Shown: positions 2,386-33,611 of the stretch, piece after piece
How the letters are laid out: each line of letters begins with the position of its first letter
How positions within the stretch are numbered: position 1 is the first letter of the stretch
Source of the DNA: Anaerolinea sp.
Lineage (GTDB): Bacteria; Chloroflexota; Anaerolineae; Anaerolineales; Anaerolineaceae
DNA length: 35,673 bases
NCBI GenBank assembly: GCA_013824385.1
Contig: PNNU01000001.1
Span: 1-35,673, forward strand
Reading direction: 5' to 3'
Made by a program: the position numbers and the translations under genes
The notes under the pieces: generated by a model
The model's database searches: none
What the model was told of the DNA's origin: nothing
The model's input: the letters and a program-made list of their open reading frames with translations, nothing else

Positions 2386-3182
2386 AATGGCTTGAAACTT
2401 TGCTCAAACGGAATCAGAAAATCGGTATTGCCCTCTCCGGAGGTGCAACCCTGGGTGCGGCGCACATCGGTGTGCTTCAGGTGTTGGAACGTGAAGGCAT
2501 CCGACCGGACTTCGTGGCGGGTACCAGCGCGGGCGCGCTGGTAGGCGCGATCTACTGTGCGGGGATTCCGCTGAATGAGATGGAAAAGATATTTGTCAAT
2601 TTGAAATGGCCAAACTTGCTTAGGATTGTAATCACCGATCCCATCTCATTGTTTGACATGCAGCCCTTGGATGGGGTGATCAAGAAGATCATCGGGGATT
2701 GTGATTTCAAAGACCTGGATATCCCATTTGCCGCGATTGGCTGCGATTTGATGACCGGCAAACGTGTAGTTTTGGATCATGGTCCTGTAGCACCCGCCAT
2801 CCGCGCCAGTGCCTCGGTGCCAGGGATATTCGCTCCGGTTGAAATTGACGGTCGCTTGTTGGTGGACGGCGGTTTGGTAGATAATCTGCCGGTTGAGCAA
2901 TTGCATCTCATGGGAGCAAATTTTACAATTGCGTCAGATGTTTCGAACAGGGGGGAGGCATCAAAACGACCCGAGCATATGTTTGACGTTTTGCAGACCA
3001 TGTTCAATATCATGCAAGATAGGGGAGCTTTAATCAATGCGGATGAATGCGACTGCTATATCCGTCCTGAAGTGACACAATACTCCTGCTGGGGGTTCTC
3101 GGATGGCGACCAGATTTTGGCAGAAGGCAGAATCGCTGCTGAAAGAGCCGTATTTCAATTGAAAAAGAATTTACGCAAATAA
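2382..3182 (+). CDS. Patatin-like phospholipase (RssA-type)
   Basis: A 266-residue serine acyl hydrolase of the bacterial patatin family, which uses a Ser-Asp dyad to cleave acyl esters of lipids. Seen: the glycine-rich oxyanion motif GGATLG at 20-25, the nucleophile elbow GTSAG at 47-51 (Ser49), and the aspartate motif DGG at 162-164 followed by LVDNLPV. Length fits the RssA/YjjU size class. There is no signal peptide, so it is probably cytosolic or membrane-peripheral. GGAGG lies four bases before the ATG, and the ATG overlaps the stop of the transposase gene (ATGA), so translation may be coupled. Natural substrate unknown. Confidence 0.88.
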   Translation: MKWLETLLKRNQKIGIALSGGATLGAAHIGVLQVLEREGIRPDFVAGTSAGALVGAIYCAGIPLNEMEKIFVNLKWPNLLRIVITDPISLFDMQPLDGVIKKIIGDCDFKDLDIPFAAIGCDLMTGKRVVLDHGPVAPAIRASASVPGIFAPVEIDGRLLVDGGLVDNLPVEQLHLMGANFTIASDVSNRGEASKRPEHMFDVLQTMFNIMQDRGALINADECDCYIRPEVTQYSCWGFSDGDQILAEGRIAAERAVFQLKKNLRK

Positions 3183-3192
3183 GAACACAAAA

Positions 3193-3221
3193 AAGAGGGA
3201 GGCTCACAGAGCCTCCCTCTT
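3193..3221 (-). terminator. Intrinsic terminator of hom (may act on both strands)
   Basis: A 13-bp perfect stem (3193-3205 with 3209-3221) with a 3-base loop sits between two convergent genes. Read on the minus strand, the stem is followed by CTTTTTTG, a proper T-tract for the homoserine dehydrogenase gene. On the plus strand the downstream TCTCTC is a poorer tract but may still stop patatin transcription. Confidence 0.85.
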
Positions 3222-3224
3222 CTC

Positions 3225-4253
3225 TCAACGATAAATTGCCAGAATATCTTCAATCACCGCGTAGCCGGTGGGTAAACGCCCGGCCCCCGGGCCGATCAGG
3301 GTGACTTCGCCGACATAATCCGTGACGAAGTGTGCTGCATTGGTGGCGCCAGACACTCCAGCCAGCGGATGAGTGATGGGCAGGCGCAGCGGTTTCACAC
3401 TGGCAACCAACTTGCCATCCACGCACTCCAGGCTGCCGATCAGCTTCCAGCGTTCGCCGGCGTCTTTGGCAGAGTTAATGTCTTCGAGGGTCAACTTTGA
3501 GATGCCGGTGCGGTCCACATCTTCCATGGAAATTTGTTCATTCATCACCAGTCTTGCCAGAATGACCACCTTGCCGGCCGCATCAAAACCTTCCACGTCG
3601 CCGGTGGGGTCTGCCTCGGCGTAGCCCAGTTTTTGGGCTTCGGCCAGCGCGTCGGCATAGCTCATGCCGCTTTCCATCTGGGTGAGAATATAGTTGGTGG
3701 TGCCGTTAAAGATGCCCATCACCTTGCGGATCTTGCCCGCAGATAGAATCTCGCGCGCCAGGCGCAGAGTGGGCGTGCCGCTCATCACCGTGCCTTCCAC
3801 GCCGATCTGCACACCGTTTGCCTCGGCCAACGCCTCCAATCTTGAATAATGCAGCGCCACAGGGCCTTTATTGGTGGTGACCACATGTTTCTTTTGAGTT
3901 AATGCTTCAATTACGTGATCAGTGGCGGGCTGGCCTGTTTTGAGGTCGGTGTAGCTCATTTCAACGATCACATCCGCATTGCATTCGCGGATCAGGGTCA
4001 GCGCGTCCCAGTCGGGTTTGGCAGAGGATAGATGCTTGAGAGACCCTTTTTTTGATACATTTTCGAGCAATTCGCCGATATCCAGACCATCGGCATCATA
4101 GAGGCTTCCAAAGCGCGCATCCGAAATAGCCGTGATCTTGAAATCCAGGCCGTGTTTATCAAAATAGTCACCATGAGATTCTTTGATGATTTGGGCCAAC
4201 CCCTGACCCACGTTGCCAAAACCAATCAATCCGAGCCGCACCACTCTGGTCAT
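3225..4253 (-). CDS. hom: Homoserine dehydrogenase
   Basis: NAD(P)-dependent reduction of aspartate semialdehyde to homoserine, the branch step towards threonine and methionine. Seen: the N-terminal Rossmann motif GFGNVG at residues 11-16, the catalytic-domain sequence ending GYAEADPTGDVEGFDAAGK that matches the homoserine dehydrogenase signature, and a C-terminus without an ACT domain. This is therefore the short, probably threonine-insensitive form (342 residues). I chose the ATG at 4253 because GGAGGG lies four bases upstream and MTRVVRLGLIGFGN is a normal beginning. An in-frame GTG at 4277 with its own AAGGGG would add eight residues. It stands alone, followed by a strong terminator. Confidence 0.93.
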   Translation of the reverse strand: MTRVVRLGLIGFGNVGQGLAQIIKESHGDYFDKHGLDFKITAISDARFGSLYDADGLDIGELLENVSKKGSLKHLSSAKPDWDALTLIRECNADVIVEMSYTDLKTGQPATDHVIEALTQKKHVVTTNKGPVALHYSRLEALAEANGVQIGVEGTVMSGTPTLRLAREILSAGKIRKVMGIFNGTTNYILTQMESGMSYADALAEAQKLGYAEADPTGDVEGFDAAGKVVILARLVMNEQISMEDVDRTGISKLTLEDINSAKDAGERWKLIGSLECVDGKLVASVKPLRLPITHPLAGVSGATNAAHFVTDYVGEVTLIGPGAGRLPTGYAVIEDILAIYR

Positions 4254-4324
4254 TGTTCCCTCCAAATTTTGTTTCACGGATTATCCCCTTAAGCGGGAAA
4301 ATATGCAAGTCAGTCTGATCCTAA

Positions 4325-4374
4325 GTTAGGGCAATTCATTCAACAATTGGATGCTACACGTGAATTGCCCTTAC
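4325..4374. repeat. REP-like inverted repeat between hom and the sigma factor gene
   Basis: GTTAGGGCAATTCA (4325-4338) faces TGAATTGCCCTTAC (4361-4374) with one mismatch over 14 bp and a 22-base loop. It lies between divergently transcribed genes and has no T-run. The arm resembles the TAGGGG-type arms of the other palindromes here, so it is more likely a REP remnant than a terminator. Confidence 0.65.
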
Positions 4375-4488
4375 CTTTACTCATATATTATGATTACAAA
4401 GTGGGGTTTTGTCCCTTTTTCTTCAAATGCTCGATATCCTTAGTGAGCTCAAATTCAGATTATTTGCGCAAAGAACGGATAAGGATAA

Positions 4489-5049
4489 ATGACCGAAAAC
4501 ATACTCAATCAGACCATTGACCGGCAGGAAGAGGAACGACTGGTGCGCGCCGCCCAGATGGACACACGCGCCTTTGAAGCCCTTTATCTGCGCTACGTCA
4601 AGCAGGTTTACCGCTATCTCTACAGCCGCATTGGCAGCCAGACAGACGCCGAAGACGTCACCGCACAAACTTTTCTTGGCGCCATTGAAGGTTTTGGCCG
4701 CTACCAGCATCAAGGTTATTTTGGCGCCTGGTTGTTTGGCATTGCCCGCCGGAAGGCAGTTGATTATTTCAGGCAGGAAGGGCGTGTGCAATTTCTGCCC
4801 GATGATCTGCCAGCACTCGACCCTGATCTGCTGCAGCAGGCCGTGCGCAGTGAACGACTGCACGAACTGCGCACACTCCTGCTTGAATTGGATGAGGACG
4901 AACAGGAGATGCTGCGACTGCGTTATGCAGCACAACTCAGCTTTGGCGAAATTGCTCGCCTGATGGAGCGCAAGGAAGATGGACTCAAGAAAAGCCTTTA
5001 CCGGCTTCTTGACCGGCTGCAAAGCCGGCTGGAGGATATTAATGACTGA
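4489..5049 (+). CDS. ECF-type RNA polymerase sigma factor
   Basis: 186 residues with the two-domain layout of extracytoplasmic-function sigma-70 factors. Region 2 lies at about 25-95, with DAEDVTAQTF at 53-62 and the -10-binding helix around WLFGIARRKAVDYFR (81-95). Region 4 lies at about 126-180 with a helix-turn-helix (LSFGEIARLMERKEDGLKKSLYR; note EDGLKK where most have EGAVKS). AAGGATAA precedes the ATG. The stop overlaps the next start by 8 bp, and that gene encodes a membrane protein with an N-terminal cytosolic stretch, the usual arrangement for a sigma factor and its anti-sigma partner. Confidence 0.9.
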   Translation: MTENILNQTIDRQEEERLVRAAQMDTRAFEALYLRYVKQVYRYLYSRIGSQTDAEDVTAQTFLGAIEGFGRYQHQGYFGAWLFGIARRKAVDYFRQEGRVQFLPDDLPALDPDLLQQAVRSERLHELRTLLLELDEDEQEMLRLRYAAQLSFGEIARLMERKEDGLKKSLYRLLDRLQSRLEDIND

Positions 5050-7279
5050 ACAGATTTATAGTCAACTTGAACAAGAACTCGGCGCATTATACGCTTCCGC
5101 GCCGTTGACAGATACTTTTATCAATTCGCTGAAGTTTCAACTGAACAGCAAAGTCCGAGTGCAATCCGGACCGCAAACGCGTACTTTACGGCTGCAGCCT
5201 GCCTGGATAGCATTGATCGTTTTGCTTGCTGCGGTCATTTTGACCACCCTGATCATCGGACCGGATAAAGTGTATGCCGAAATGCGCCGCCTGTTGGGTT
5301 ACATCCCAGACGTGGGGCTGGTGGATACAAATGTACCCATCCGCGTGTTGGCAGAGCCGGTGGAACAAACTCGCTACGGCGTTACCATCACTGTCACCAG
5401 CGCCACGCTCACCGCTGATCGCAGCCACATTGAATACCGTGTTTTCGGTGTTCCACGTTCGGCTTATCCGAATGATGAAAGTGTCATCGGCTGCATCGTG
5501 CAAGATTACCTTTTGCTGCCTGACGGAAGTAAATTGGAATGGGTGAATGATTTTCCGGCCATCCCTATGGGCGTAAATGATGCTACCCTGGTCATCCCTT
5601 GTATCTCAGGAACCATGCCGGGTTATGCCCCCGAGAATTGGGAATTCCCACTCAAGTTTGTACCTGCTCCTACTGATTTGACAGTCATGCCTGTTATTGA
5701 GATCACTTCTACAGCGGTGCCGACTCCCAAGCCGGTCAGCTTGTCTCAGCCTACCGAAATCGTGCAGGATAATAGTGTCAGTGTGACTCAGGTGATCGAA
5801 ACCGTGACGGGCTATATTCTGGTAGGCGAGTTTAAACCGCAGAAACAAGAGAGTGAGTTTATACAGACCACCGGTATGCCTGTCATCACAGATGCAAAGG
5901 GGTTGAATGTACCCCTAAAAATAAACCTGGACGCCATGAACAATATAGATGCCGGACCGGATGGTTGGGTCTATGAGATTGACACGGTTGGGGTGAGCTT
6001 TCCAATTACGATCACTTTTTCAGGTGTCTCGATCAGCCAGCCAGAACCCGGGGCGAGCGTGGAAATCCCCTTTGTTTTTGGCAGCACCGTGGTGCCTGGT
6101 CAGGAGTGGAAACCGGAGCTTGAGTTTGATCTTGCAGGTCACAGTATAAAACTGGCAACCATTTTGGCAAATTCACAGGGTGGATACCATTTCACTCTAC
6201 TAGTGGATTCCAGTGTCAATGGATTGAGTGTTCAACTCAAAGACCAGAAATCCATAGGTGGCGGAGGTGGCAGCGGACTGATCAACGGAGAATTAAATAC
6301 CGGTTTATCGTTTGCCCAGCTTCCTGTTGGAAAGCAAACCCTGGTGTTTTCAAAATTATCAGTTATCAGCGACCCATTGAGCTGGAGCGGATCTTGGTCT
6401 CCCAACGAGGTTCACACGGATATGCCGGCGGTCGGTGAATTGCCTGCAGGCACTTGTGGCAACGCCAACACCATCCAATCAGCTCCTGTGCTGCCTGCGA
6501 CCATTAAAGGGAAAGCCTTAACGTATGAGCAAATTACGGACAGCTCGATGGGCGGTCTGGTGCTATCCGATCTTAACGGCACAGGTAGAACAGTAATTAC
6601 TTTTGCTGGAAACTGGGGAGCAATGAATACAACAGGCACAAGAATTTCCTTTTCCGCGGAGGATGGATTGGCAATCTATGATGTTGCCAATGGAACCACA
6701 TCCATTCAAACCAGTGGAAGCGGATTTGATCCGGCTTGGTCCAATGAGGGCAATCGCTATGCTTATGTGAGTGAAGCTGCTGATGGAATTTTGGTTATGG
6801 ACCTGGCTACTGGAAAAGCAACGAAGGTCTCATCATTGGCGTTTGAATTTACCGTGGGATGGCTGCCCGATGACAGCCGCTTGATCACCGCCGCCATGTT
6901 TAGCGGAGGCACTGCCTGGCAGATCCGTTCGATAAATCCTGAGTCTGGAGAATCAGAAGACTTGTTTGTGATTGAAGATGGATCGTACAAATCACTCGGC
7001 GCAGCTTTATCCCCTGACGGTAAGTGGATTGCCTACCGCGGGCGTAATAACAGCGATATTCGCTTGGTTAATTTGGACGGCAGCGAGAATCTTCTAGTTT
7101 TTGATAATCCATCAGTGGCAACAAGTGGACCAGTGTGGGCAAGTAAAGGCTGGCTGGGATTTAGTCTGCTGCAAGTAGATAATTCGCATCAAAAAACGAT
7201 CCTTGTGAACCCGGTAACCTGCACGGTTTATGAGTTGTCAGGCCTGAAGGGAACACTTGAAGGGTTCATCATTGAATAA
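5042..7279 (+). CDS. Membrane anti-sigma-like protein with extracytoplasmic beta domains and C-terminal propeller repeats
   Basis: 745 residues. A short cytosolic N-terminus (1-52) is followed by one membrane helix (about 53-72, WIALIVLLAAVILTTLIIG) and a large exported part. Residues ~80-230 (MRRLLGYIPDVGLVDTNVPI then beta-rich sequence) resemble the DUF4179-type region of sigma-linked membrane proteins. The C-terminal ~230 residues contain TolB/PD40-like blades such as GFDPAWSNEGNRYAYVSE and ALSPDGKWIAYRGR. GGAGG sits six bases before this ATG, inside the sigma gene; an upstream in-frame ATG (4979) lacks such a site. Inference: it holds the sigma factor and senses an envelope signal or ligand. 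No zinc-binding anti-sigma HxxxCxxC motif is visible, so the anti-sigma role rests on context. Confidence 0.78.
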   Translation: MTEQIYSQLEQELGALYASAPLTDTFINSLKFQLNSKVRVQSGPQTRTLRLQPAWIALIVLLAAVILTTLIIGPDKVYAEMRRLLGYIPDVGLVDTNVPIRVLAEPVEQTRYGVTITVTSATLTADRSHIEYRVFGVPRSAYPNDESVIGCIVQDYLLLPDGSKLEWVNDFPAIPMGVNDATLVIPCISGTMPGYAPENWEFPLKFVPAPTDLTVMPVIEITSTAVPTPKPVSLSQPTEIVQDNSVSVTQVIETVTGYILVGEFKPQKQESEFIQTTGMPVITDAKGLNVPLKINLDAMNNIDAGPDGWVYEIDTVGVSFPITITFSGVSISQPEPGASVEIPFVFGSTVVPGQEWKPELEFDLAGHSIKLATILANSQGGYHFTLLVDSSVNGLSVQLKDQKSIGGGGGSGLINGELNTGLSFAQLPVGKQTLVFSKLSVISDPLSWSGSWSPNEVHTDMPAVGELPAGTCGNANTIQSAPVLPATIKGKALTYEQITDSSMGGLVLSDLNGTGRTVITFAGNWGAMNTTGTRISFSAEDGLAIYDVANGTTSIQTSGSGFDPAWSNEGNRYAYVSEAADGILVMDLATGKATKVSSLAFEFTVGWLPDDSRLITAAMFSGGTAWQIRSINPESGESEDLFVIEDGSYKSLGAALSPDGKWIAYRGRNNSDIRLVNLDGSENLLVFDNPSVATSGPVWASKGWLGFSLLQVDNSHQKTILVNPVTCTVYELSGLKGTLEGFIIE

Positions 7280-7292
7280 ATATTAATTGCAA

Positions 7293-7360
7293 GGCGTATG
7301 GCATGTTATATGCATATTCAAGATGTTTCAGAGTGAGCAATGCCATACGCCCAAATTTTT
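7293..7360 (+). terminator. Terminator after the anti-sigma-like gene
   Basis: GGCGTATGGCAT (7293-7304) pairs perfectly with ATGCCATACGCC (7340-7351). The 35-base loop is longer than usual. A CCAAATTTTTT tract follows the right arm on the plus strand. It ends the sigma/anti-sigma unit just before the convergent CBS gene. Confidence 0.65.
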
Positions 7361-7803
7361 TACCTTCCAAATGCAGAACCGAAGATGTAACTTTGCAGGT
7401 TGTCAATCAGCAAGTCTTTATCTTCGATCATATTCTTGACGATATCTCCGATGGAGATAATGCCGACCAGATCATCCGCCTGCATCACAGGCAGGTGACG
7501 GATGTGTTTATTGGTCATAATAGCCATGCATTCATCGATTGTGGAGGAGGGCGTTACACAATAAAGTTCTTTGGTCATATAGGTTTCGACCGGCATCTTT
7601 AAAGTGATACATTGATCTCTCGAGACTTCGCGCACAAAATCACGTTCGGAAAAAATCCCAACAGGTTTGCCCATATCTAAAACCATAATGGCTCCTATGT
7701 TTTTTTCTGCCATCAATTGAAGGGCTTCAGCGACCATCGCATCCGGGGTGACGGTTACAACCTCATTTCCTTTAGCCTTGAGAAGCATACTGACGAGGAT
7801 CAT
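7360..7803 (-). CDS. Tandem CBS-domain protein
   Basis: 147 residues made of two CBS motifs (a Bateman module) and little else. CBS1 is about 12-68 (VVTVTPDAMVAEALQLM ... GIFSERDFVREV). CBS2 is about 76-132 (LYCVTPSSTIDECMAIM ... VGIISIGDIVKNMI). Such free-standing pairs bind adenine nucleotides and regulate a partner, or act as energy sensors; the partner here is unknown. AAGGAG lies six bases before the ATG. The promoter reads away from the TetR gene. Confidence 0.92.
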   Translation of the reverse strand: MILVSMLLKAKGNEVVTVTPDAMVAEALQLMAEKNIGAIMVLDMGKPVGIFSERDFVREVSRDQCITLKMPVETYMTKELYCVTPSSTIDECMAIMTNKHIRHLPVMQADDLVGIISIGDIVKNMIEDKDLLIDNLQSYIFGSAFGR

Positions 7804-7844
7804 GTTTTTCTCCTTTTGTAATTAAGACCATTATTGTATGAATT

Positions 7845-7873
7845 AGTATATGACAATTTTGGCTAAGAATCAA
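7845..7873 (-). promoter_or_regulatory. Promoter of the CBS-domain gene
   Basis: Read on the minus strand: TTGATT (7868-7873), 17-bp spacer, TATACT (7845-7850). It lies about 42 bp before the ATG and is divergent to the TetR operon promoter. Confidence 0.6.
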
Positions 7874-7914
7874 TTGTTTGGGGTCTATGTTTATATAGAA
7901 TTAATAATTCCTAC

Positions 7915-7959
7915 TTGACATTGTGTTTAATTGCGCTAGAATAAGAACGAACGTTCGTT
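7915..7959 (+). promoter_or_regulatory. Promoter and palindromic operator of the TetR-led efflux operon
   Basis: TTGACA (7915-7920), 16-bp spacer, TAGAAT (7937-7942). Immediately downstream, covering the probable transcription start, is the perfect 14-bp dyad AACGAACGTTCGTT (7946-7959). This matches the kind of operator bound by AcrR/TetR repressors, so the operon is probably autorepressed by its first gene and induced by a ligand. Confidence 0.78.
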
Positions 7960-7975
7960 TTTATTTGGAGGATAC

Positions 7976-8590
7976 TTGACTAAAATTGAAGCACTTTCCA
8001 AAGGGGAACGCACCCGCCAGGCGGTTATTGAGGCTGCCCACCAACTCTTTGTCGATCAGGGTTTTGCGGCAACTTCCATGCGCCAAATTGCTGAAAAAGC
8101 CGGGCTGGCTTTGGGTGGCATCTACAATCACTTTCCCACCAAGGAATCCATCTTCTCTGAAGTCATTCTGGCTTACCATCCGTTTCATCAGATACTACCT
8201 CTGCTTAAGGATGCTCAGGGCGAAACTTTCGAAGCCTTTGTGCGCAACGCCGCCAGAGGGATGGTGTCTGAATTGGGGCGCAGACCCGACTTTGTAAAGT
8301 TGCTTTTTGTTGAATTGGTGGAATTTGAAGGCAAAAACATGCCAAATATGTATAAATCCATCTTTCCACAGGTACTGCCTCTGGTCAAACGCTTCACAAA
8401 TCTCAAGGGTGAGTTGAGAGGGGTAAATCCTTTTGTGCTTTTTCGCTCTTTTTTAGGGTTGTTCTTTTCTTTCTTTATGACCGAGTTGTTATTAAAAGAT
8501 ACCCCGGCAGCACTCTTCCAAAAAGGATCACTGGATGATTTTGTCGAGATCTATCTGCACGGTGTTCTTTCTGAAAGGGCGAAAAAATGA
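7976..8590 (+). CDS. TetR/AcrR-family transcriptional repressor
   Basis: 204 residues. The N-terminal helix-turn-helix is classical: RTRQAVIEAAHQLFVDQGFAATSMRQIAEKAGLALGGIYNHFPTKESIF, about residues 12-62. The rest is a helical ligand-binding domain that I cannot tie to a known effector. The start is TTG with GGAGG four bases upstream; no better start exists before the conserved domain. It overlaps the permease start by 4 bp (ATGA). The dyad in its own promoter is the probable target. Such regulators next to ABC-2/HlyD genes usually control efflux. Confidence 0.92.
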   Translation: MTKIEALSKGERTRQAVIEAAHQLFVDQGFAATSMRQIAEKAGLALGGIYNHFPTKESIFSEVILAYHPFHQILPLLKDAQGETFEAFVRNAARGMVSELGRRPDFVKLLFVELVEFEGKNMPNMYKSIFPQVLPLVKRFTNLKGELRGVNPFVLFRSFLGLFFSFFMTELLLKDTPAALFQKGSLDDFVEIYLHGVLSERAKK

Positions 8591-9717
8591 ATTCACGACT
8601 GATCTCTATCATCCGCAAGGAGTTTATCCAGATCCTGCGAGATAAACGGGCACTGGCGATCATTCTGATCATCCCCATTATGCAACTCTTTTTACTCGGA
8701 TACGCCGCCACCAATGATGTGCGCAATATTCCCCTGGCAGTTTATGATCAGTGCCGCTGTGCGGAATCGCGTTCGCTGCTGGATGCCTACCGGGCGGCGG
8801 ACTACTTCCGGTTGGCCTATTCAGTCACCTCCGAAGACGAGATCCGTGCCCTGATTGAAAACGGTGAAGCTCGTGCCGCCATCATCATCCCTCCTGACTA
8901 CAACACCCGGCTGGCCAAGGGGGATGCCCAGGCAGCCTTCATCCTTGACGGCTCGGACCCCACCTCAGCCTCCACGGCCTATTCCGCTGCCCTGCTGATC
9001 GGGCAGGCTCACTCGACCCAACTGATGATGGAAAATCTGCAGCGTGCTGGCGTCAACACCGCCCGCTTGCAGCAGCCGCTGGAGATTCGCACCCAGGTCT
9101 GGTACAACCCTGATTTGGTCAGCAACTATTTCATGATCCCCGGCGTGATTGGCATGATCCTGTTCGCCATCACTTCCATCCTCACCGCCACATCGGTGGT
9201 GCGAGAACGCGAACGCGGCACCATTGAGCAGTTGATCGTCACTCCCATCCGCCCTTGGGAATTGATTGTTGGCAAAGTCACCCCTTATGTGATTCTGGCG
9301 CTGATCAACACCTTCGAAGTGTTGGCTGTCGGACACTGGTGGTTTGGTGTGCCGATCAGAGGGTCGTTGACCTTGATTGTGGCAACCTCCGGGCTGCTGC
9401 TGCTCTCCGGTCTGGGCATCGGGTTGTTCGCCTCCACTATAGCCAACACCCAACAGGAGGCCATGCTCACGGTGTGGATGACCTTGCTGCCTTCCATTTT
9501 TCTCTCAGGTTTTTTCTTTCCCATCGAAGCCATGCCCGCGGTGCTGCGCTGGTTTTCGGCCATCATTCCGCTGCGCTATTACCTGGTGATCATCCGTTCA
9601 GTCATGCTTAAGGGTTCTGGAATTAACTCCATTTGGATGGAAACCCTGGCGTTGTTCGCCTTTGGCGTCGTGATTCTGCTGGCTGCTTCTTTGCGTTTTC
9701 GCAAACGTCTCGATTAA
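8587..9717 (+). CDS. ABC-2 type transporter permease (YbhS/YhhJ-like)
   Basis: 376 residues. One N-terminal membrane helix (about 23-41) is followed by a ~130-residue extracytoplasmic domain, then five helices from about residue 180. The signature RERERGTIEQLIVTP (about 207-221) precedes the membrane block, as in drug and unknown-substrate exporters of the YbhS/YhhJ group. SGFFFPIEAMP near the end is also typical. The E. coli Ybh system has two permeases. Only one is present here, so a homodimer is likely. ATPase partners are the two genes at 14445-16278, separated from it by six genes. Confidence 0.9.
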   Translation: MNSRLISIIRKEFIQILRDKRALAIILIIPIMQLFLLGYAATNDVRNIPLAVYDQCRCAESRSLLDAYRAADYFRLAYSVTSEDEIRALIENGEARAAIIIPPDYNTRLAKGDAQAAFILDGSDPTSASTAYSAALLIGQAHSTQLMMENLQRAGVNTARLQQPLEIRTQVWYNPDLVSNYFMIPGVIGMILFAITSILTATSVVRERERGTIEQLIVTPIRPWELIVGKVTPYVILALINTFEVLAVGHWWFGVPIRGSLTLIVATSGLLLLSGLGIGLFASTIANTQQEAMLTVWMTLLPSIFLSGFFFPIEAMPAVLRWFSAIIPLRYYLVIIRSVMLKGSGINSIWMETLALFAFGVVILLAASLRFRKRLD

Positions 9718-9744
9718 TTTAGATTTTGTAAACTGGAGTTGATG

Positions 9745-11088
9745 ATGAAAACAAAACAGCTTCCCAAGTTCGTAATTCCTGTAGTAATTCTGCTCCTCGC
9801 GGTGGGTGTATATTATTTGGTCACTGCGTTGTCTTCAAAGGTTAATAAAAACCTGTTGGTCTCCGGCACCATCGAAGCGGAAAGCTCCATCATCTCCCCC
9901 GAGATCGGCGGTAAAGTCACAGCGGTGAATGTCAACGAGGGTGACAGCGTCAAGACCGGCGACACCCTGTTTACGATTGATGACACTCTGCTGCAAGCGC
10001 AGCGTGCCGTGGCAGAAGCTAATCTACTTCTTGCTCAAGATGCCACAGCAACCTCTCAGGCTGCCGTGCTGTCTGCAAAGGCTACTTACGACCTTGCACT
10101 GGCCGCGAGCAGACAGGAATCAGCAACACTACGTGCCGCAGATTGGTCAAGCGCCAACCCGCAGGGTTACACCTTGCCTGGCGGATCATTCACGCCGCAG
10201 GAGTTAATAGCAGCGGCACAAACCGAAATAGATAACGCCATTGGTTCCAAAGCTGATGCAGAAGTAGCGCTTTCGAAAGTATTGACTGACTCTGACAACA
10301 GCGATTTTGTGAAAGCGGAGAGTACTCTGCTGGAACTTAAATTTGAAGTACAGGCTGCCTCCGATGTGCTGGCAAAGGCCAATACTTCTACAAACACAGA
10401 CCTTAAAGATGCTGCCCAAACAGTTTTTGATGACGCTCAAACCAAGCTTGAGGATGCTCAAAAAGCTTATGACGACTTGAAGGAGTCTGATTCCGCCATT
10501 ATTGTTCTTGCGGCCAGGCGCGACCTGGTGTTGGCTACTGAAAGAGTGCAGGCGGCACAATTGAGGCTGGCGGCTCTTCAGACTGGTGAGAACTCATTGA
10601 AAGTGCAATCAGCACTTGCTGTGTTGACACAAGCCACTACAGCCGCCAATCAGGCGCAGGCATCCATTCAACAGGCGCAAGCCAACCTGGACTTGCTGGA
10701 TGTACAGCTCTCCAAACTCTCCATCACCGCACCCTTTGAAGGCATCATCCTCGGACGTTCGGTTGAGGTCGGAGAGGTGCTTTCACCCGCAGCGCCAGCC
10801 TTCACCCTTGGGCAGTTGGACCTTCTTACCATTACGGTCTATGTCCCTGAAACCGAGGTGGGTCTGCTTTCGATCAACCAACAGGCGTCACTCTCCGTGG
10901 ATTCCTATCCCGGCGAAACCTTCTCTGCCGTAGTCATCCACATCGCTGATCAGGCCGAGTTTACCCCCCGCAACGTGCAAACTTCTGAAGGACGTAAGAC
11001 CACCGTCTTTGCAGTCAAACTGCAGATATCTAACCCTGATGCCAAGCTTAAACCTGGCATGCCCGCGGATGTTACTTTTTCAAAATAG
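9745..11088 (+). CDS. HlyD/MFP-family membrane-fusion adaptor (YbhG-like)
   Basis: About 448 residues. An N-terminal membrane anchor (residues 9-29) is followed by the first half of a lipoyl-like domain (ISPEIGGKVTAVNVNEGDSVKTGDTLF) and a long Ala/Gln/Asp-rich alpha-helical hairpin (~80-310). The second lipoyl half (ITAPFEGIILGRSVEVGEVL) and a beta-barrel region complete the protein. Adaptors of this type connect an inner-membrane pump to the outer layer or collect substrate. Three starts are adjacent (TTG 9739, ATG 9742, ATG 9745); GGAG is best spaced for 9745. If the organism lacks an outer membrane, the adaptor may act alone at the cell wall. Confidence 0.9.
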   Translation: MKTKQLPKFVIPVVILLLAVGVYYLVTALSSKVNKNLLVSGTIEAESSIISPEIGGKVTAVNVNEGDSVKTGDTLFTIDDTLLQAQRAVAEANLLLAQDATATSQAAVLSAKATYDLALAASRQESATLRAADWSSANPQGYTLPGGSFTPQELIAAAQTEIDNAIGSKADAEVALSKVLTDSDNSDFVKAESTLLELKFEVQAASDVLAKANTSTNTDLKDAAQTVFDDAQTKLEDAQKAYDDLKESDSAIIVLAARRDLVLATERVQAAQLRLAALQTGENSLKVQSALAVLTQATTAANQAQASIQQAQANLDLLDVQLSKLSITAPFEGIILGRSVEVGEVLSPAAPAFTLGQLDLLTITVYVPETEVGLLSINQQASLSVDSYPGETFSAVVIHIADQAEFTPRNVQTSEGRKTTVFAVKLQISNPDAKLKPGMPADVTFSK

Positions 11089-26307: not shown

Positions 26308-27237
26308 CTATGCTGATCTTGAGCGGGTTAATCTTGGATCTAATGCATCTCGCAGACCGTCGCCGAGGAGGTTGAAAGCAAGAACGGTCAGCATAATGGC
26401 AATACCCGGAAAGATCACCAGATGTGGCGCGCTGAAGATACTGTTCTTTTCTTCACCCAGCATCAAACCCCACTCAGGACGGGGAGGTTCCGCGCCAAGC
26501 CCAAGGAAGGACAAAGCGGCTGCATCTAAAATGGCAGTGGCAATACCAAGGGTACCTTGAACGATCAGGGGAGTAATGGCGTTGGGCAGGATGCGTCTGA
26601 AGAGGATATGCATCGATGATCCGCCCAGGGCTTTGGACGCCTGAACATATTCCAGCTCTTTCACAGACAATACTGTCGAACGTACCAATCGCGCAAAGCG
26701 CGGAATGGACACAATACCGATCGCCAGCAGGGCGTTAATCAGACCCGTCCCCAATACAGAAACAATGGCGATAGCCAATAGCAAACTTGGAAATGCCATC
26801 AGCACATCCATCGTACGCATTATTAAATTATCCAACCAGCCACCGACAAAACCTGCGATTGAGCCAATAAACACGCCAATTATGATGGCAAAGCTCATTG
26901 TGATTAGCCCAACTTGAAGGGATAATCGGGAACCGTAAATAACACGAGAAAACAAATCGCGACTATTTCCATCGATGCCAAATAAATGTTCAGGTTGGTC
27001 TTTTGGGCACCCCAACAAATGTACACAGGGCGGTGATCTTCGTTTCTCTTGTTTTAAAAGTATAGTGGGATCGTATGGGGCAATCAGGGGAGCAAATATT
27101 GCAACCAGAATTAATATACTTAGAATAATGATCCCTGCTCTGGCTGAGGAATGGTGAAATAAATGCCTGAGGACTTCGCGAGTCGGTGACTTGCGGTTAC
27201 TTGACTGATCTGATTCTAATAACGAAGTGTTTTCCAT
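26308..27237 (-). CDS. Peptide ABC transporter permease, DppC/OppC type
   Basis: 309 residues, last gene of the peptide-import operon. The N-terminal cytosolic stretch and first helix are followed by a ~50-residue loop containing HLLGCPKDQPEHLFGIDGNSRDLFSRVIYGSR, the usual DppC feature (GTDxxGRDxxSRxxxG). Five more helices and the coupling sequence EYVQASKALGGSSMHILFRRILPNAITPLIV complete the BPD-transporter domain. The gap to the DppB gene is only 12 bp and AAGGTG precedes the ATG. It forms the membrane channel with DppB. Confidence 0.93.
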   Translation of the reverse strand: MENTSLLESDQSSNRKSPTREVLRHLFHHSSARAGIIILSILILVAIFAPLIAPYDPTILLKQEKRRSPPCVHLLGCPKDQPEHLFGIDGNSRDLFSRVIYGSRLSLQVGLITMSFAIIIGVFIGSIAGFVGGWLDNLIMRTMDVLMAFPSLLLAIAIVSVLGTGLINALLAIGIVSIPRFARLVRSTVLSVKELEYVQASKALGGSSMHILFRRILPNAITPLIVQGTLGIATAILDAAALSFLGLGAEPPRPEWGLMLGEEKNSIFSAPHLVIFPGIAIMLTVLAFNLLGDGLRDALDPRLTRSRSA

Positions 27238-27249
27238 GACATTTTCACC

Positions 27250-28326
27250 TTATTCAATACGGATGCGAGGATCAAGATACGCATATGACAAGTCAACAAT
27301 GAGGTTAACCAATACGAAAATTAGGGCGATGACAATTGTAAAACCTTGAACCACCGGATAATCTCGAGCAAGAATCGCTCCGACTAATCCAGTTCCAAAA
27401 CCGGGTAAAGAGAATACGGTTTCGGTAAGAACAGCGCCTGAGAGTAAACTTCCAGTTTCAATACCAATAATCGTTACAATTGGAATCATCGCATTACGCA
27501 TTGCATGTTTAGTGATAACTTTACGTTCGATCAATCCCTTTGCGCGTGCAGTTCGTACATAATCCAAACCTAATACTTCCAGTAAACTTGACCGTGTCAT
27601 ACGGGCTATGATCGACATTGGAATTGTGCCAACGGCGACGGCTGGTAAGATCAAGTGTTTTAACGAGTCCCAAAAAATAGTCCAATTACCTGTGATGATG
27701 CAGTTGATCAATACGGAATTAGACATCATTTCCACTAAAAACTTCTTCATTCCTGTCAAATCAGTTAATCCCCAATAGATAGACAAGTCTTGCAAAGCGA
27801 ATCCTGCAGTAAACCTGCCTGAAGGGGGAAGAACAAAAGGAGTGCCTTTTAAAAGCAACGCAAAAACATAGGCGAGTAACAAACCCAACCAAAACACAGG
27901 CATTGACACACCTATATTCGCAATAATCATCGTGATAGTATCAATAAAAGAATTTCGTTTAATCGCAGAAATAACACCTAACAAAACCCCAATACTTGTT
28001 GAAAAAGCCATTGCAAGAAAGGTTAATTCCATGGTTAATGGAAGTCTTTCTGCAATCATATCAGTTACAGGTCGGGACCATTTAATTGAATCACCGAAAT
28101 CACCTTGGGTAAGATTACCAAGATACCGGCCAAATTGAACAAAGAGATTGTCATTTAGACCGTATCGTTCCATAAAGGCTTCACATCTTTCAGGTGTAGA
28201 CCTCTCTCCTAACATCGCCACGCATGGATCGCCAGGAATCAAACGAACGATCATAAAGGTTATGAGAACAACACCTAACAAAACGGGTATTAATAATAGC
28301 AAACGTCGGCCGATGAATTGAAGCAT
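27250..28326 (-). CDS. Peptide ABC transporter permease, DppB/OppB type
   Basis: 358 residues with six membrane segments. It begins MLQFIGRRLLLLIPVLLGVVLITF, the standard DppB first helix. RYGLNDNLFVQFGRYLGNLTQGDFGDS is the conserved periplasmic start. The coupling motif is DYVRTARAKGLIERKVITKHAMRNAMIPIVTIIG. It is slightly longer than average because of an extra loop around 165-205 (LLKGTPFVLPPSGRFTAGFALQ to the GMKKFLVEMMSNS part), which is common in relatives. A strong hairpin lies upstream, between it and the binding-protein gene. Confidence 0.93.
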   Translation of the reverse strand: MLQFIGRRLLLLIPVLLGVVLITFMIVRLIPGDPCVAMLGERSTPERCEAFMERYGLNDNLFVQFGRYLGNLTQGDFGDSIKWSRPVTDMIAERLPLTMELTFLAMAFSTSIGVLLGVISAIKRNSFIDTITMIIANIGVSMPVFWLGLLLAYVFALLLKGTPFVLPPSGRFTAGFALQDLSIYWGLTDLTGMKKFLVEMMSNSVLINCIITGNWTIFWDSLKHLILPAVAVGTIPMSIIARMTRSSLLEVLGLDYVRTARAKGLIERKVITKHAMRNAMIPIVTIIGIETGSLLSGAVLTETVFSLPGFGTGLVGAILARDYPVVQGFTIVIALIFVLVNLIVDLSYAYLDPRIRIE

Positions 28327-28401: not shown

Positions 28402-30129
28402 TTAAGGAACTGAGTATCCTGCTTGTGTAAGAGCTTCTTTGGCTTTAGCTTGATCGAAATCATACCAAGGGATATCTTTACTGGCGCCAGGATAAACAAA
28501 GGCCGGGACAAAGTTAATTGCAACACTTGATCCAGCTGCATAATATTGATCTACGATACGTTGACGATCAATAGCGTATGAGATGGCTTTACGAACTTCA
28601 AGATTATCAAACGGTGCAATATTGTTGTTCAAACCAATGTAGAAGATATTGAAACCGTCACGGGGATAAATCGCGAGGTTTGAATCGGCTTCAATGGTTG
28701 CCACATCATCAGGACCTGGATTGTCAATACCATTGACAGTGCCTGCCTGAAGTTCGAGCAGACGTTGGGCAGATTGTTCAGACCAGCGGAAGATCAGGTT
28801 CTTGGTCAAAGCTTTATCACCCCAATAATTGGGATTGGCTTCGAATACAACACTGTCGCCGCGGTTCCAAGCTTTTACGGTGTAGGGGCCAGTTCCATTG
28901 GGTGCAACGCTCATCTTCATGGAATCGCCATTGTTGGCATCCAAGAAATCTTTATCTTGGATGTTGAAGGATGAGAAAGCAACCTTGGAAGGGAAGGCGG
29001 GATCTGGGGCGCAAAGAGTGAATTTCACAGTCTTGGCATCCACGGCTTCGATGGATTTGAATTCGCCACCATAAGAGCAGTCAGGGGCGCTCATGGAGAG
29101 CAAACCATCGGTATCAACTAACTTAACGTCAGATGATTCATTGTTAATCGTGCTACCAAAGAAACCGCCCATGTAATAGAACTCAGCAGTTCGTCCAACG
29201 TGATTGGGGCTCTTGGCATCCCATTGTGCAACAAAAGTTGCAACAACATCATTAGCGTCAAAATCGGCGCCATTGTGGAATTTGACACCTTGTCTCAGGT
29301 TGAAGGTGTATTCGGTCAGATCTGCATTGGTAGCATAACTTTCAGCAAGTGCAGGAATGACGTCGGTACCACCCACGCTAAAAGCGAGCAGGGATTCGTA
29401 AACTTGCTCACAAGCGCGAAGGGTTTCGCCATCAGATTCATCACCACACCACAGAGAAGCAGGTTCTCCGTTCTGCATCCAGACAAATTGGTCAGTGCCG
29501 TTTGAAACAACGCTGAACACTTCGTTCCCAAGGGGGCTGGAATGAGCGCCTTCGACATTGGCTTGATATGCTGTTGAGGAACCACCATGTGCAACAGGAA
29601 TCATGACGACATTATCTTTGAGTAATTGGTTTACAGCGTCATAATGGGTCTGTCGTTCGGCGGGGTCTGATAGTTGGGCTGCAGCAGAAATTTCAGACAA
29701 TAATGCGGGGTCCATGGTGCCAAATTGTTTGCTTTCGGCATTGAAATGGACGTCGTAGAAGTTGGTTGCATCAGGGTAGTCTGCATTCCATCCCAGAAGG
29801 TAAAAGCCCTCATTACCGGCATTTGCGGAATCTACAAAAGCTGCGGATTCTTTTTCTTCAAGGGTTACTTCAATGCCTACCTCTTTCAATTGAGCCTGAA
29901 TTTCTTGGGCTACTTTATCAGGATAAGGCAGGTAAGCGCGATCCACCACTCTGAAAGACAGGGTAATCTTGAGTGGGTTGTCAACAATAGGTGCCGCGGT
30001 TGTTGCGACAACAGGGGCTTCAGTGGCAGGTGCCTCTGTAGCCACAGGGGTCGCTTTAGCGCAAGCTGCGAGCACCATGGTGACAATAATCAAAGTGCTA
30101 AATATTACAAATAACTGACTTCTTTTCAT
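28402..30129 (-). CDS. Peptide-binding lipoprotein (SBP family 5) with an apparently permuted domain order
   Basis: 575 residues. The signal peptide has a lipobox LAAC (Cys23), then a TEAP/VATTAAP linker to ~50. Residues 53-210 (LSFRVVDRAYLPYPDKVAQEIQAQLKEVGIEV; LLGWNADYPDATNF; DPAERQTHYDAVNQLLKDNVVMIPVAHG) look like the part that normally ends such proteins. The usual mature N-terminus starts only at ~213 (DQFVWMQNGEP; CEQVYESLLAF; ALAESYATNADLTEYTFNLRQGVKFHNG). The protein then stops after FDQAKAKEALTQAGY, which normally leads into the segment found at 53. I chose ATG 30129 because GGAGGAG is just upstream; earlier starts would bury the signal peptide. It captures peptides for DppBCDF. Confidence 0.85.
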   Translation of the reverse strand: MKRSQLFVIFSTLIIVTMVLAACAKATPVATEAPATEAPVVATTAAPIVDNPLKITLSFRVVDRAYLPYPDKVAQEIQAQLKEVGIEVTLEEKESAAFVDSANAGNEGFYLLGWNADYPDATNFYDVHFNAESKQFGTMDPALLSEISAAAQLSDPAERQTHYDAVNQLLKDNVVMIPVAHGGSSTAYQANVEGAHSSPLGNEVFSVVSNGTDQFVWMQNGEPASLWCGDESDGETLRACEQVYESLLAFSVGGTDVIPALAESYATNADLTEYTFNLRQGVKFHNGADFDANDVVATFVAQWDAKSPNHVGRTAEFYYMGGFFGSTINNESSDVKLVDTDGLLSMSAPDCSYGGEFKSIEAVDAKTVKFTLCAPDPAFPSKVAFSSFNIQDKDFLDANNGDSMKMSVAPNGTGPYTVKAWNRGDSVVFEANPNYWGDKALTKNLIFRWSEQSAQRLLELQAGTVNGIDNPGPDDVATIEADSNLAIYPRDGFNIFYIGLNNNIAPFDNLEVRKAISYAIDRQRIVDQYYAAGSSVAINFVPAFVYPGASKDIPWYDFDQAKAKEALTQAGYSVP

Positions 30130-30247
30130 ATTCTCCTCCATCAAAATTGAACGTTTAATGAGCTTCTTGTTTGAAACCCAACTCATCCATATTAGTCTGA
30201 TCTAAACACCACCTCCTTTTCGAAATATCACTAAAATGCAAAAACAA

Positions 30248-31243
30248 TTAAACGCGCCAACAAGCTACGAAATGATCATGATTCTTTTCCACAAAGGGAG
30301 GTTCCTTAACAGAACACTCCTCCACGGCGATTGGACAACGCGGATGAAAACGGCAGCCTTTTGGCGGGTTGACCGGGCTGGGGACATCCCCTTTAAGAAT
30401 GGTTCGTTCTCGTCTCAGCTTTGGCTCCGAAACTGGAATTGCAGATAATAAGGCTTTGGTATATGGATGCATTGGATTCACGAAGAGATCTTCCCGACTG
30501 GTGAGTTCCACCAATTTGCCCAAGTACATCACGCCCACGCGGTCTGAAATATGTTCCACCACGCCCAGGTTATGCGCAATAAACAGATAAGTTAATCCCA
30601 GATCTTTTTGGAGGTCTTTAAGCAGGTTTAAGACCTGTGACTGAATGGATACATCCAATGCAGAAACAGGCTCATCACAAACAATGAACTGGGGATTCAA
30701 GGAAAGCGCACGGGCAATGCCAATTCTCTGTCTTTGGCCGCCAGAAAATTCGTGAGGGTATCGTTTGGCGTGATATTCTTCAAGGCCAACTTTTTTCAAG
30801 ATTTCAATGGCCATCGGGTAACGGTCTTTTCTGGAGCCGATATTATGAATATTAAAGCCTTCCATCACCGAATCTACGATTGGAACGCGTGGATCAAGAG
30901 AGGCGTATGGGTCTTGAAAAATGATCTGCATATTTTTGCGGATCTTTTTCAAATCATCGCCCTTCAAAGCTAAAACGTCTACGCCTTCAAATTCGACCGA
31001 GCCGCTTGTGGGTTCAATCAAACGCAGGATGGTTCTGCCAATGGTGGTTTTTCCGCAACCTGATTCACCCACCAACCCCAGAGTTTCACCTTTTTTAATT
31101 GTGAAACTGACGTTATCCACTGCCTGAACATGGGCTGTGACGCGTTGAATGACCCCGCTTTTTATAGGGAAGTATTTCTTTAGGTTTTTTACCTCAACCA
31201 GGGTTACCTTGTCTTTTGGCTGTGCAGTGCTTAATTCACTCAT
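30248..31243 (-). CDS. Peptide ABC transporter ATPase, DppF/OppF type
   Basis: 331 residues. Walker A is GESGCGKT (59-66), the Q-loop is [14 protein letters not shown], the signature is [15 protein letters not shown], Walker B is [14 protein letters not shown] and the H-loop is [11 protein letters not shown]. The C-terminal oligopeptide/dipeptide ABC segment has [16 protein letters not shown] with clustered cysteines. It pairs with the DppD-type ATPase 23 bp upstream. GAGGAATT precedes the ATG. Confidence 0.95.
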
Positions 31244-31266: not shown

Positions 31267-32301
31267 TTACAGCTTGATCGGCGCAGAATGTCCATCTGAA
31301 TCTTGATACAACCAGCAGCGAACGGTATGGCCTGGTTTGACTTCACATAAATCAGGATCTTTTTTGGTGCAAATCTCAAGCCCATATTTTTCACGCATTT
31401 GGCATCTGGGCGCAAAACGGCAGCCAACCGGTAAGTCGATCAAATTTGGCACCAATCCCGGGATGACTTCAAGACGATCAACAATTTTGCCCAAGACGGG
31501 TATTGAGCCGATCAAACCCTTGGTGTAGGGATGGAGCGGTTCAGCAAAAATGGGTTCAACATCCGTGTATTCCACAATTTGGCCGGTATACATTACGGCA
31601 ACCCTATCAGCCATTTCTGAGATCACACCCAGGTCATGGGTGATTAAGATCACGGCCGTGTTGGTTTTTTTGCGTAAGTCCCTGATCAGATCAAGGATCT
31701 GAGCCTGAATGGTCACATCGAGGGCAGTGGTGGGTTCATCCGCGATTAAAAGCTGCGGTGAGAGTGCCAAAGCCATGGCAATCATCACACGTTGGGCTTG
31801 ACCACCTGAGAGCTCGTGCGGATAAGCCAGAGCACGCCGCCCCGGGTCAGGAATGCCTACCTGGGTAAGCAGGTCAACAGCTTTATCCCAGGCTTCTTTA
31901 TGCTTCATACCTTTGTGAATTTGTAAAACTTCAGCCACCTGATCGCCTACCCTGAAAACCGGGTTCAAGCTGGATTGAGGCTGTTGGAAGATCATCGAAA
32001 CACGATCTCCACGGATTTTGACCATTTCATCTTCTGAAAGGTCAAGTAGAGATTTTCCATCAAAAATGATTTTACCGCCGGTTATTTTGCCTGGAGCACT
32101 TACGAGGCGCATGATGGTAAGACTGGTCACGCTTTTGCCGCATCCTGATTCACCCACAAGACCCAGCACTTCACCTGGTTTTACTGAAAAATCAACTCCA
32201 TCAACGGCTTTAACGACACCATCTTCAGTATAAAAAAAAGTTTTTAAGCCTTGAACACTTAGCAGGGACCCTTCAGCAGGATCTTTTTTGACACTCTCCA
32301 T
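31267..32301 (-). CDS. Peptide ABC transporter ATPase, DppD/OppD type
   Basis: 344 residues, first gene of the operon. Walker A is GESGCGKS (50-57), the signature LSGGQAQRVMIAMAL, Walker B LLIADEPTTALDVT and the H-loop VILITHDLGVI. The C-terminal region has RCQMREKYGLEICTKKDPDLCEVKPGHTVRCW, four cysteines in the pattern reported to hold an iron-sulfur cluster in some DppD/OppD proteins. The gene order D-F-A-B-C differs from the E. coli order A-B-C-D-F. GGAG lies eight bases before the ATG, and a ~215-base leader precedes it. Confidence 0.95.
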   Translation of the reverse strand: MESVKKDPAEGSLLSVQGLKTFFYTEDGVVKAVDGVDFSVKPGEVLGLVGESGCGKSVTSLTIMRLVSAPGKITGGKIIFDGKSLLDLSEDEMVKIRGDRVSMIFQQPQSSLNPVFRVGDQVAEVLQIHKGMKHKEAWDKAVDLLTQVGIPDPGRRALAYPHELSGGQAQRVMIAMALALSPQLLIADEPTTALDVTIQAQILDLIRDLRKKTNTAVILITHDLGVISEMADRVAVMYTGQIVEYTDVEPIFAEPLHPYTKGLIGSIPVLGKIVDRLEVIPGLVPNLIDLPVGCRFAPRCQMREKYGLEICTKKDPDLCEVKPGHTVRCWLYQDSDGHSAPIKL

Positions 32302-32631: not shown

Positions 32632-33498
32632 TTAGTGTTCGCCGAGTGAATTAACCTTGCCAAAACCGGTCATTGTCTGGGTTACTTTAGGGCTGCCGTA
32701 GTATTCCAGATTACCGCTGCCTGTGATGGTGACATCTAAATTAGTCTTGGCCCATACTGTGGCGTCACCGAAACCAGTGATCTTGACAGAAGCGATTTCG
32801 CTTTCAAGATCCTGACCGTGATAATTGCCTGAGCCTACAATCTGAATTTCCTGGTCATTGGTTGTGCCGGTGATATCTGCGTTGCCAAATCCGCTGATCT
32901 TCAAATTCATGGTGACGGCTTGCAATTTTTTTACGTCGATATCGCCAGAACCGCTAATCTCAAGTACGGGTTGATCCACTATCATTTCTTTCACATTAAT
33001 GTTGCCAAATCCACTTACGCGCAATAAAGCGTTTTCAGATTTCAATGTACCCAGAGTCATGTTGCCAGACCCAGAAAGTTTGATTTCCATATCTTCGGCG
33101 TTTAATTCGGCGGCGTTAATGTTGCCGAAGCCCGATAGCACTACGCTTGACAATGATTTTACGGTTAATGTGTATTCAATGTCGCGAGATGGATCAAGCG
33201 AAAGATTGGGTTCCATTCCGATTTCGAGGGTATCGTTGAAGACTTCGCTAGTGATGTATTGCATCACATTATCGTCTGCCTTGATGGTGAGTGACTCTTT
33301 ATCACCCTCAATAATAGTCAGGTTGCCAATGCTTTGCAGATCCACTTTATCAAACCCGTTTACAGAACGATCTTCTGTGACGATGGTGCCTGATCCGTTG
33401 ATATGCTCGCTATTAAAAGTAATGGAATGTCCATTGATGGAGCAAGCTGACAATGCAAATGCTAAAACCATTAAAACTACAGCAATTTTTTTAATCAT
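32632..33498 (-). CDS. GIN-domain (DUF2807) lipoprotein with alternating GFG/GSG beta-helix repeats
   Basis: 288 residues. The signal peptide VLMVLAFALSAC gives a lipidated cysteine near residue 19. A conserved entry segment follows (RSVNGFDKVDLQSIGNLTIIEGDKESLTIKADDN), then a row of ~20-residue turns. Turn centres read SGFG, SGSG, SGFG, SGSG, SGFG, VGSG, TGFG, TGSG, TGFG: a strict alternation over nine turns. DUF2807 proteins form a right-handed beta-helix at the cell surface; function unknown. The ATG at 33498 is set by AGGAG upstream and the signal peptide; a longer frame to 33594 has no support. Confidence 0.85.
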   Translation of the reverse strand: MIKKIAVVLMVLAFALSACSINGHSITFNSEHINGSGTIVTEDRSVNGFDKVDLQSIGNLTIIEGDKESLTIKADDNVMQYITSEVFNDTLEIGMEPNLSLDPSRDIEYTLTVKSLSSVVLSGFGNINAAELNAEDMEIKLSGSGNMTLGTLKSENALLRVSGFGNINVKEMIVDQPVLEISGSGDIDVKKLQAVTMNLKISGFGNADITGTTNDQEIQIVGSGNYHGQDLESEIASVKITGFGDATVWAKTNLDVTITGSGNLEYYGSPKVTQTMTGFGKVNSLGEH

Positions 33499-33557
33499 CG
33501 TATTTCTCCTGTTTGGTATGCAAAATATACGCAGGGATGACAAAATGGTTGCATAAA

Positions 33558-33591
33558 AAACACTGGAGAGAAATGTTCGCCTCCAGTGTTT
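33558..33591 (-). terminator. Intrinsic terminator of the DUF362 gene
   Basis: AAACACTGGAG (33558-33568) pairs with CTCCAGTGTTT (33581-33591) over a 12-base loop. On the minus strand a TTTTTT tract follows. It separates the DUF362 gene from the GIN-domain gene, which therefore needs its own promoter. Confidence 0.85.
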
Positions 33592-33611
33592 CAAGTTGAT
33601 AGTGATTAGGG

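Follow-up and report, generated by a model that had tools for sequence, protein, structure and literature searches.

The gene and its operon

The DNA analysed here, called the window, is a stretch of 35,673 nucleotides from Anaerolinea sp. (contig PNNU01000001.1), and the gene of interest encodes a family-5 solute-binding protein (SBP). We treat the family-5 fold as three blocks that run N-M-C in canonical proteins. In the clade to which the window protein belongs, the blocks occur in three rotations: C-N-M in type A (the window protein), M-C-N in type B, which is the commonest, and M2-C-N-M1 in type C. The gene very probably specifies a circularly permuted lipoprotein of an Opp/Dpp-type importer, produced by successive moves of the termini. 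The features of the locus are:

28402..30129 (-), family-5 solute-binding lipoprotein gene, type A (C-N-M), 575 amino acids (open reading frame, PF00496, phmmer, AlphaFold2 model)
30133..30139 (-), ribosome-binding site GGAGGAG, upstream of the ATG at 30129 (sequence)
30061..30129 (-), signal peptide and lipobox LAAC (residues 20–23) with predicted lipidated Cys23 (sequence)
29974..30060 (-), T/P/A-rich tether, residues 24–52, mostly of low predicted local distance difference test score (pLDDT) (sequence and model)
29500..29973 (-), block C, the canonical C-terminal part, residues 53–210, including D117 (phmmer/profile alignment)
29503..29514 (-), junction of about four residues (206–209) joining the old C- and N-termini (C-to-N gap lengths)
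29140..29502 (-), block N, the canonical N-terminal part, residues 210–330 (phmmer/profile alignment)
29098..29139 (-), N-to-M linker, residues 331–344, interpreted as a scar of type B termini (absent from the canonical rows counted)
28411..29097 (-), block M, residues 345–573, with the chain end at the M/C loop (phmmer/profile alignment, structure match)
27250..28326 (-), permease of OppB/DppB type (PF00528 and PF19300)
26308..27237 (-), permease of OppC/DppC type (PF00528 and PF12911)
30248..31243 (-), ATPase of OppF/DppF type (PF00005 and PF08352)
31267..32301 (-), ATPase of OppD/DppD type (PF00005 and PF08352)

PF00496 matches the window protein with 283.1 bits (cut-off 32.4), the match being split into two stretches. 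Aligned to HbpA (3m8u) with phmmer, residues 239–322, 356–572 and 59–201 correspond to residues 30–119 (independent E-value 2e-13), 125–342 (3e-30) and 352–498 (6.7e-8), respectively. The same swapped alignment is obtained with HbpA2 (3tpa) and DppA (5f1q), the other two chains listed, and a full-length alignment in normal order is absent among the phmmer matches listed. AlphaFold2 models the protein with high confidence (pLDDT 92). The fold is DppA/OppA-like, and the top structural hits listed for either model are family-5 SBPs, with no search aimed at cluster B as such. Because the order is C-N-M and not the linear N-M-C, we class the protein in a permuted sub-family, as neither DppA nor OppA; its score with the DppA equivalog NF043070, 182.6 bits, lies below the cut-off of 1005. 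Two points weigh against this assignment. VIA-align covers residues 209–575 only of the window model, so that block C is placed by sequence alignment and by the confidence of the model, and the input alignment of the structure model also contained cut pieces of canonical SBPs. As judged from sequence, the window protein is one family-5 fold with the last block moved to the front.

The first-pass annotation had proposed a circularly permuted order, which is borne out by these alignments and by the model, and its reading frame, coordinates and block limits (residues 53–210 as bases 29500–29973) are correct. Residues 59–201 match the canonical C-terminal block and do not appear as a different domain. 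The annotation had let the protein end exactly at KAKEALTQAGY and had placed the fusion of the old termini near residue 211. The chain actually ends in AGYSVP, and the fusion stands, with its junction shifted to residues 206–209; the C-to-N gap is four residues in all type A rows (82 of 82, 70 distinct). The complete transport operon that it described is confirmed by Pfam, with OppD, OppF, OppB and OppC types around the SBP gene.

Compared with DppA/HbpA-type SBPs (1dpp, 3m8u, 5f1q), the window protein aligns in all its blocks over most of the length and retains the GW..D Asp, and opp/dpp-type operon partners also stand beside its gene. Unlike those proteins, the window protein is C-N-M, with its termini at the M/C loop, the old termini fused, and an insert between N and M. 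D117 aligns with the Asp of HbpA GWSGD, and the corresponding Asp in the L231 protein of a separate branch, described below, aligns with that of OppA 1b05 GWCAD (D419 by our own count); this Asp has a role in holding the peptide amino group, and its alignment is the one point that speaks for the predicted uptake of peptides. A signal peptide and a lipobox Cys (VLAAC) mark the window protein as a predicted bacterial lipoprotein, and C23 is conserved in every one of the 16 type A proteins aligned.

The operon order is OppD-OppF-SBP-OppB-OppC, with permeases of OppB and OppC type side by side and a pair of oligo_HPY ATPases. The same order is found in six of seven fetched type A loci; the contig of the seventh ends before OppC. 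OppB and OppC follow the SBP in 25 of 31 type B loci (L164 and L189 counted as one place), with no permease detected within the stretch in the other six, and two type C loci read SBP-OppB-OppC-OppD, one of them also with OppF. Purifying selection is evident in the six pairs compared, with nonsynonymous divergence (dN) of 0.13–0.22 and synonymous divergence (dS) of 1.8–3.1 in four pairs and beyond measure in two. Most likely, the permuted SBPs function in peptide import and carry their lipid anchor at a new position, although transport activity and anchoring effects are what we infer from these features. The chain very probably folds as a usual family-5 Venus-flytrap, with the canonical termini joined by about four residues and the new termini at the M/C loop. 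As its canonical relatives do, it most likely captures peptides or similar solutes and passes them to the neighbouring OppB/OppC, but with the lipid anchor at another place on the fold. A lipoprotein-like gene with DUF2807 (head GIN domain) lies upstream of the operon (window 32632–33594, -).

Three rotations and the direction of change

The best 120 proteins from each of two homologue searches, together with the window protein, give 241 proteins, which by block order comprise 68 of type A (window protein included), 156 of type B and 17 of type C. After rotation to one order, the best identities are 84% between A and B, 82% between B and C and 56% between A and C, as against about 30% at most to canonical rows of the same set (best pairs covering at least 80% of the shorter row). 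The type A proteins come from separate database entries, with contigs of up to 594 kb, and because 68 such entries share the C-N-M order, an assembly slip is very unlikely. A mis-assembled or broken gene as the source of the swapped order would find a parallel in contig L003, probably an assembly chimera, where the open frame (L003:5242-6933, +) encodes the first 179 residues of a permuted SBP and then continues through unrelated sequence until the contig stops. The 156 type B and 17 type C proteins are likewise from separate entries, however, the genes are under purifying selection, and permuted SBPs occur on Dehalogenimonas contigs of about 2 Mb, which leaves this explanation with next to no probability.

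The first-pass annotation had also allowed for a known sub-family of Chloroflexota. The named members of the clade are Chloroflexota, and no earlier description of such a sub-family was recognised among the titles and abstract openings listed. With a type B query at E≤1e-40, matches were obtained in 42 of 149 genomes in the phylum of a Lentilactobacillus genome and in 32 of 144 in the phylum of G763, and in none of 148 genomes in the phylum of a Chitinophagales genome or of 47 in the class of Ktedonosporobacter. Twelve of the 74 matched genomes were checked, and all 12 had canonical order; this threshold was rejected as a specific marker of the permuted clade since it also matches canonical-order proteins. 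As the order of these other-phylum hits was checked in part (12 of 74), we do not claim that permutation is restricted to Chloroflexota. The closest canonical-order relatives found come from the same two phyla (L192-L195, L235-L245; 30–38% identity to the type B query), and differ from the permuted clade in their linear N-M-C order and in lacking the N-to-M insert in the rows counted. A type C profile at E≤1e-90 matched 42 of 301 genomes in the phylum of Ktedonosporobacter; 38 of the 43 matches listed were order-checked, giving 32 of type B, one OppA-like protein (L231) and five canonical or partial. A pattern scan of genome contigs proved a poor bait, with few permuted proteins among the 80 loci kept of 445: L001 and L002 are type B, L003 is the fragment mentioned above, and the remainder are canonical or hold one or two blocks. 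The names given in the searches are merely family-5 or ABC (ATP-binding cassette) transporter substrate-binding proteins, and routine annotation conceals the permuted SBPs.

The direction of change was evaluated with two rooted trees. The first holds 88 rows (15 of 72 A, 43 of 220 B, 14 of 19 C and 16 of 25 canonical), the second 80 rows (9 A, 53 B, 7 C and 11 canonical) with closer outgroups of 30–38% identity. In both, the permuted clade is separated from canonical proteins with support 100, type B is basal, and types A and C are nested inside a paraphyletic B; this nesting, the third rotation and the separate origin of C-N-M elsewhere go beyond what the first-pass annotation could see. A single type B clade is rejected by the approximately unbiased (AU) test in the 80-row tree (p=1.9e-7). 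The junctions point in the same direction. The M-to-C gap has a median of 4 in canonical, type B and type C rows, and the median N-to-M gap is -11 in canonical rows (15 rows, 12 distinct), as against +15 in type A (82 rows, 70 distinct) and +9 in type C (21 rows, 18 distinct). The extra residues, about 26 in A and 20 in C, lie exactly at the site of the B termini, and the A and C linkers look as if the tail of a B protein had been attached to the tether of another. A type C linker, for example, reads FLEKPPATATDTKYESPDC, and nearby B proteins end in FLNPPPATP (P0146) or carry TATDTMYAAADC before M (P0144); the type A protein P0041 retains a TPTPAPVAP stretch in its N-to-M linker. From the nesting of A and C in B and the extra residues at the B termini we infer that the termini moved from canonical to B, and then from B to A and from B to C.

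The reverse starting point, with type A first and B and C derived from it, could account for the C-to-N fusion of 3–5 residues that is common to rows of all three rotations, but B is paraphyletic at the base of the clade and extra residues at the cut site of another type are found in A and C only, and we regard it as very improbable. Some observations weigh against our preferred reading. The monophyly of type A corresponds to one side of a branch, with modest support (92 in the 88-row tree, 63 in the 80-row tree), and type C requires two changes on the trees, yet a single clade is compatible with the data (p=0.37). No fused tandem copy of the clade was seen, and tblastn found no relic second copy in the window (best extra match E 0.18). 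Long frames of 776–1386 amino acids, considered as N-M-C-N duplication intermediates, were rejected, being by profile type B behind other sequence.

Independent C-N-M order in an OppA-like branch

The locus L231 was initially scored as C then M only. Its protein aligns to B. subtilis OppA with residues 234–573 to 19–356 and 68–195 to 366–493, and this swap makes it a C-N-M protein in a separate, OppA-like branch. Its best 120 homologues comprise 12 C-N-M and 107 canonical proteins and one, P0281, that the script left undecided and that is canonical by its single linear Pfam stretch. By source names, Dehalogenimonas formicexedens and D. etheniformans are permuted and Dehalococcoides mccartyi is canonical; the OppA-like P0329 and P0333 of the latter, canonical relatives of the permuted Dehalogenimonas proteins, share 59–62% identity by block with L231, and are unlike the window protein in their linear N-M-C order and position outside the window clade. 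In a tree of 52 of 119 rows, the permuted proteins form three separate clades of seven, three and two rows. A single permuted clade occurs in 0 of 200 bootstrap trees and is rejected by the AU test (p=2.4e-5). All 12 permutants are cut after a KAKQLLxEAGY-like and before an LPxLKFQ-like sequence, and the gene order SBP-OppB-OppC-OppD-OppF is common to three permuted and three canonical loci. A class-wide search matched 26 of 197 genomes, three with permuted order and 23 with the N-M part alone; three of these 23 were fetched and all are canonical. On this sequence evidence, the OppA-like branch arrived at C-N-M independently of the window clade, in three clades and at the same M/C loop.

Origin and meaning of the permutations

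Circular permutation can arise by duplication and fusion. Each move in the SBPs would involve a tandem gene duplication, in-frame fusion of the copies and trimming of the ends, and the position of the anchor may have been a target of selection. Two family-5 SBP genes are adjacent on one strand in L226-L230, canonical in four of these loci and with N unscored in L229, and such side-by-side genes are plausible raw material for permutation by fusion.

We tentatively propose that relocation of the termini is a recurrent theme in the evolution of lipid-anchored family-5 SBPs of Chloroflexota, with at least six permutations at three sites and selection on where the tether leaves the fold. Among these would be further permutations of proteins whose order had changed before, and three conversions in parallel within the one OppA-like branch. 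Neutral drift, in which permutation is merely tolerated, termini are easily joined, tandem SBP genes serve as raw material and the anchor is irrelevant, has nearly an even chance of being correct. It agrees with the short C-to-N junction in all three rotations and with the tandem canonical gene pairs in the phylum (L226-L228 and L230, and L229 by its M and C blocks only), but fits less well with the same M/C loop cut in four lineages (type A and the three OppA-like clades), a recurrence open to explanation by selection or by a loop that simply tolerates cuts. Adaptive re-anchoring, in which a tether on another face is selected since it helps the SBP to deliver to the permease or to fuse with other modules, is a possibility we would put somewhat short of even. 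The at least six moves on the trees and the type B SBPs behind other modules (L155, P0239, L164) are in its favour, and the anchoring idea has been raised before, for TpMglB-2 (PMC4990184). Against it, the canonical-order P0281 likewise has an N-terminal fusion (DUF4382).

Pfam names the fusion partners of type B as SBP_bac_3 and a haem-binding domain (L155), SBP_bac_3 (P0239) and a protein kinase (L164); other labels (SBP_bac_3-like, Peripla_BP_6-like, LGFP-like) were assigned by eye. In L164, a 942-residue frame (2290-5115, +) carries a type B SBP behind a protein kinase domain (PF00069) and a stretch judged by eye to be transmembrane-like. A separate type B SBP gene comes next, then OppB-OppC, and the fusion protein may be a solute-sensing kinase. 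The L155 gene (2939-5788, +) places a type B SBP after an SBP_bac_3 domain and a CxxCH region, the latter matching the haem-binding PF09098 at 30.7 bits (cut-off 25.2), and L165 and L166 show the same three-module chain by eye. L156 has two branched-chain-type binding domains (by eye) before a type B SBP in a frame of 1337 residues (6266-10276, +), adjoining a 957-residue relative with one such domain and then a single OppB-OppC pair. The type B SBPs P0182, P0184, P0191 and P0227 carry about 220 N-terminal residues with two GGLAQQGFPIS-like repeats; the front region of P0182, the sole one of the four tested, has no Pfam match.

The nearest known case is TpMglB-2 (Tp0684), of the 'Cluster Bc' SBPs of treponemes and Gram-positives (PMC4990184). 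Like the window protein, it is a naturally permuted and probably tethered SBP, and its authors raise anchoring as a possible cause of the permutation. It differs in having a sugar-binding type I/cluster B fold with one permutation described, whereas the window clade belongs to family 5 and shows three rotations, re-permutation and repeated origins. No description of permuted family-5 SBPs was recognised among the papers listed from the open literature, judged from titles and the starts of abstracts.

To our knowledge, natural circular permutants are usually old single events with low identity. In the present case one binding protein persists in three rotations, with pairs at 82–84% identity and scars that suggest a direction, and in the Dehalogenimonas branch, with two named species, permuted SBPs occupy operons arranged like those of their canonical relatives. 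These proteins offer ready pairs for studying how chain order and anchor affect folding, ligand binding and ABC delivery, and how permutations originate.
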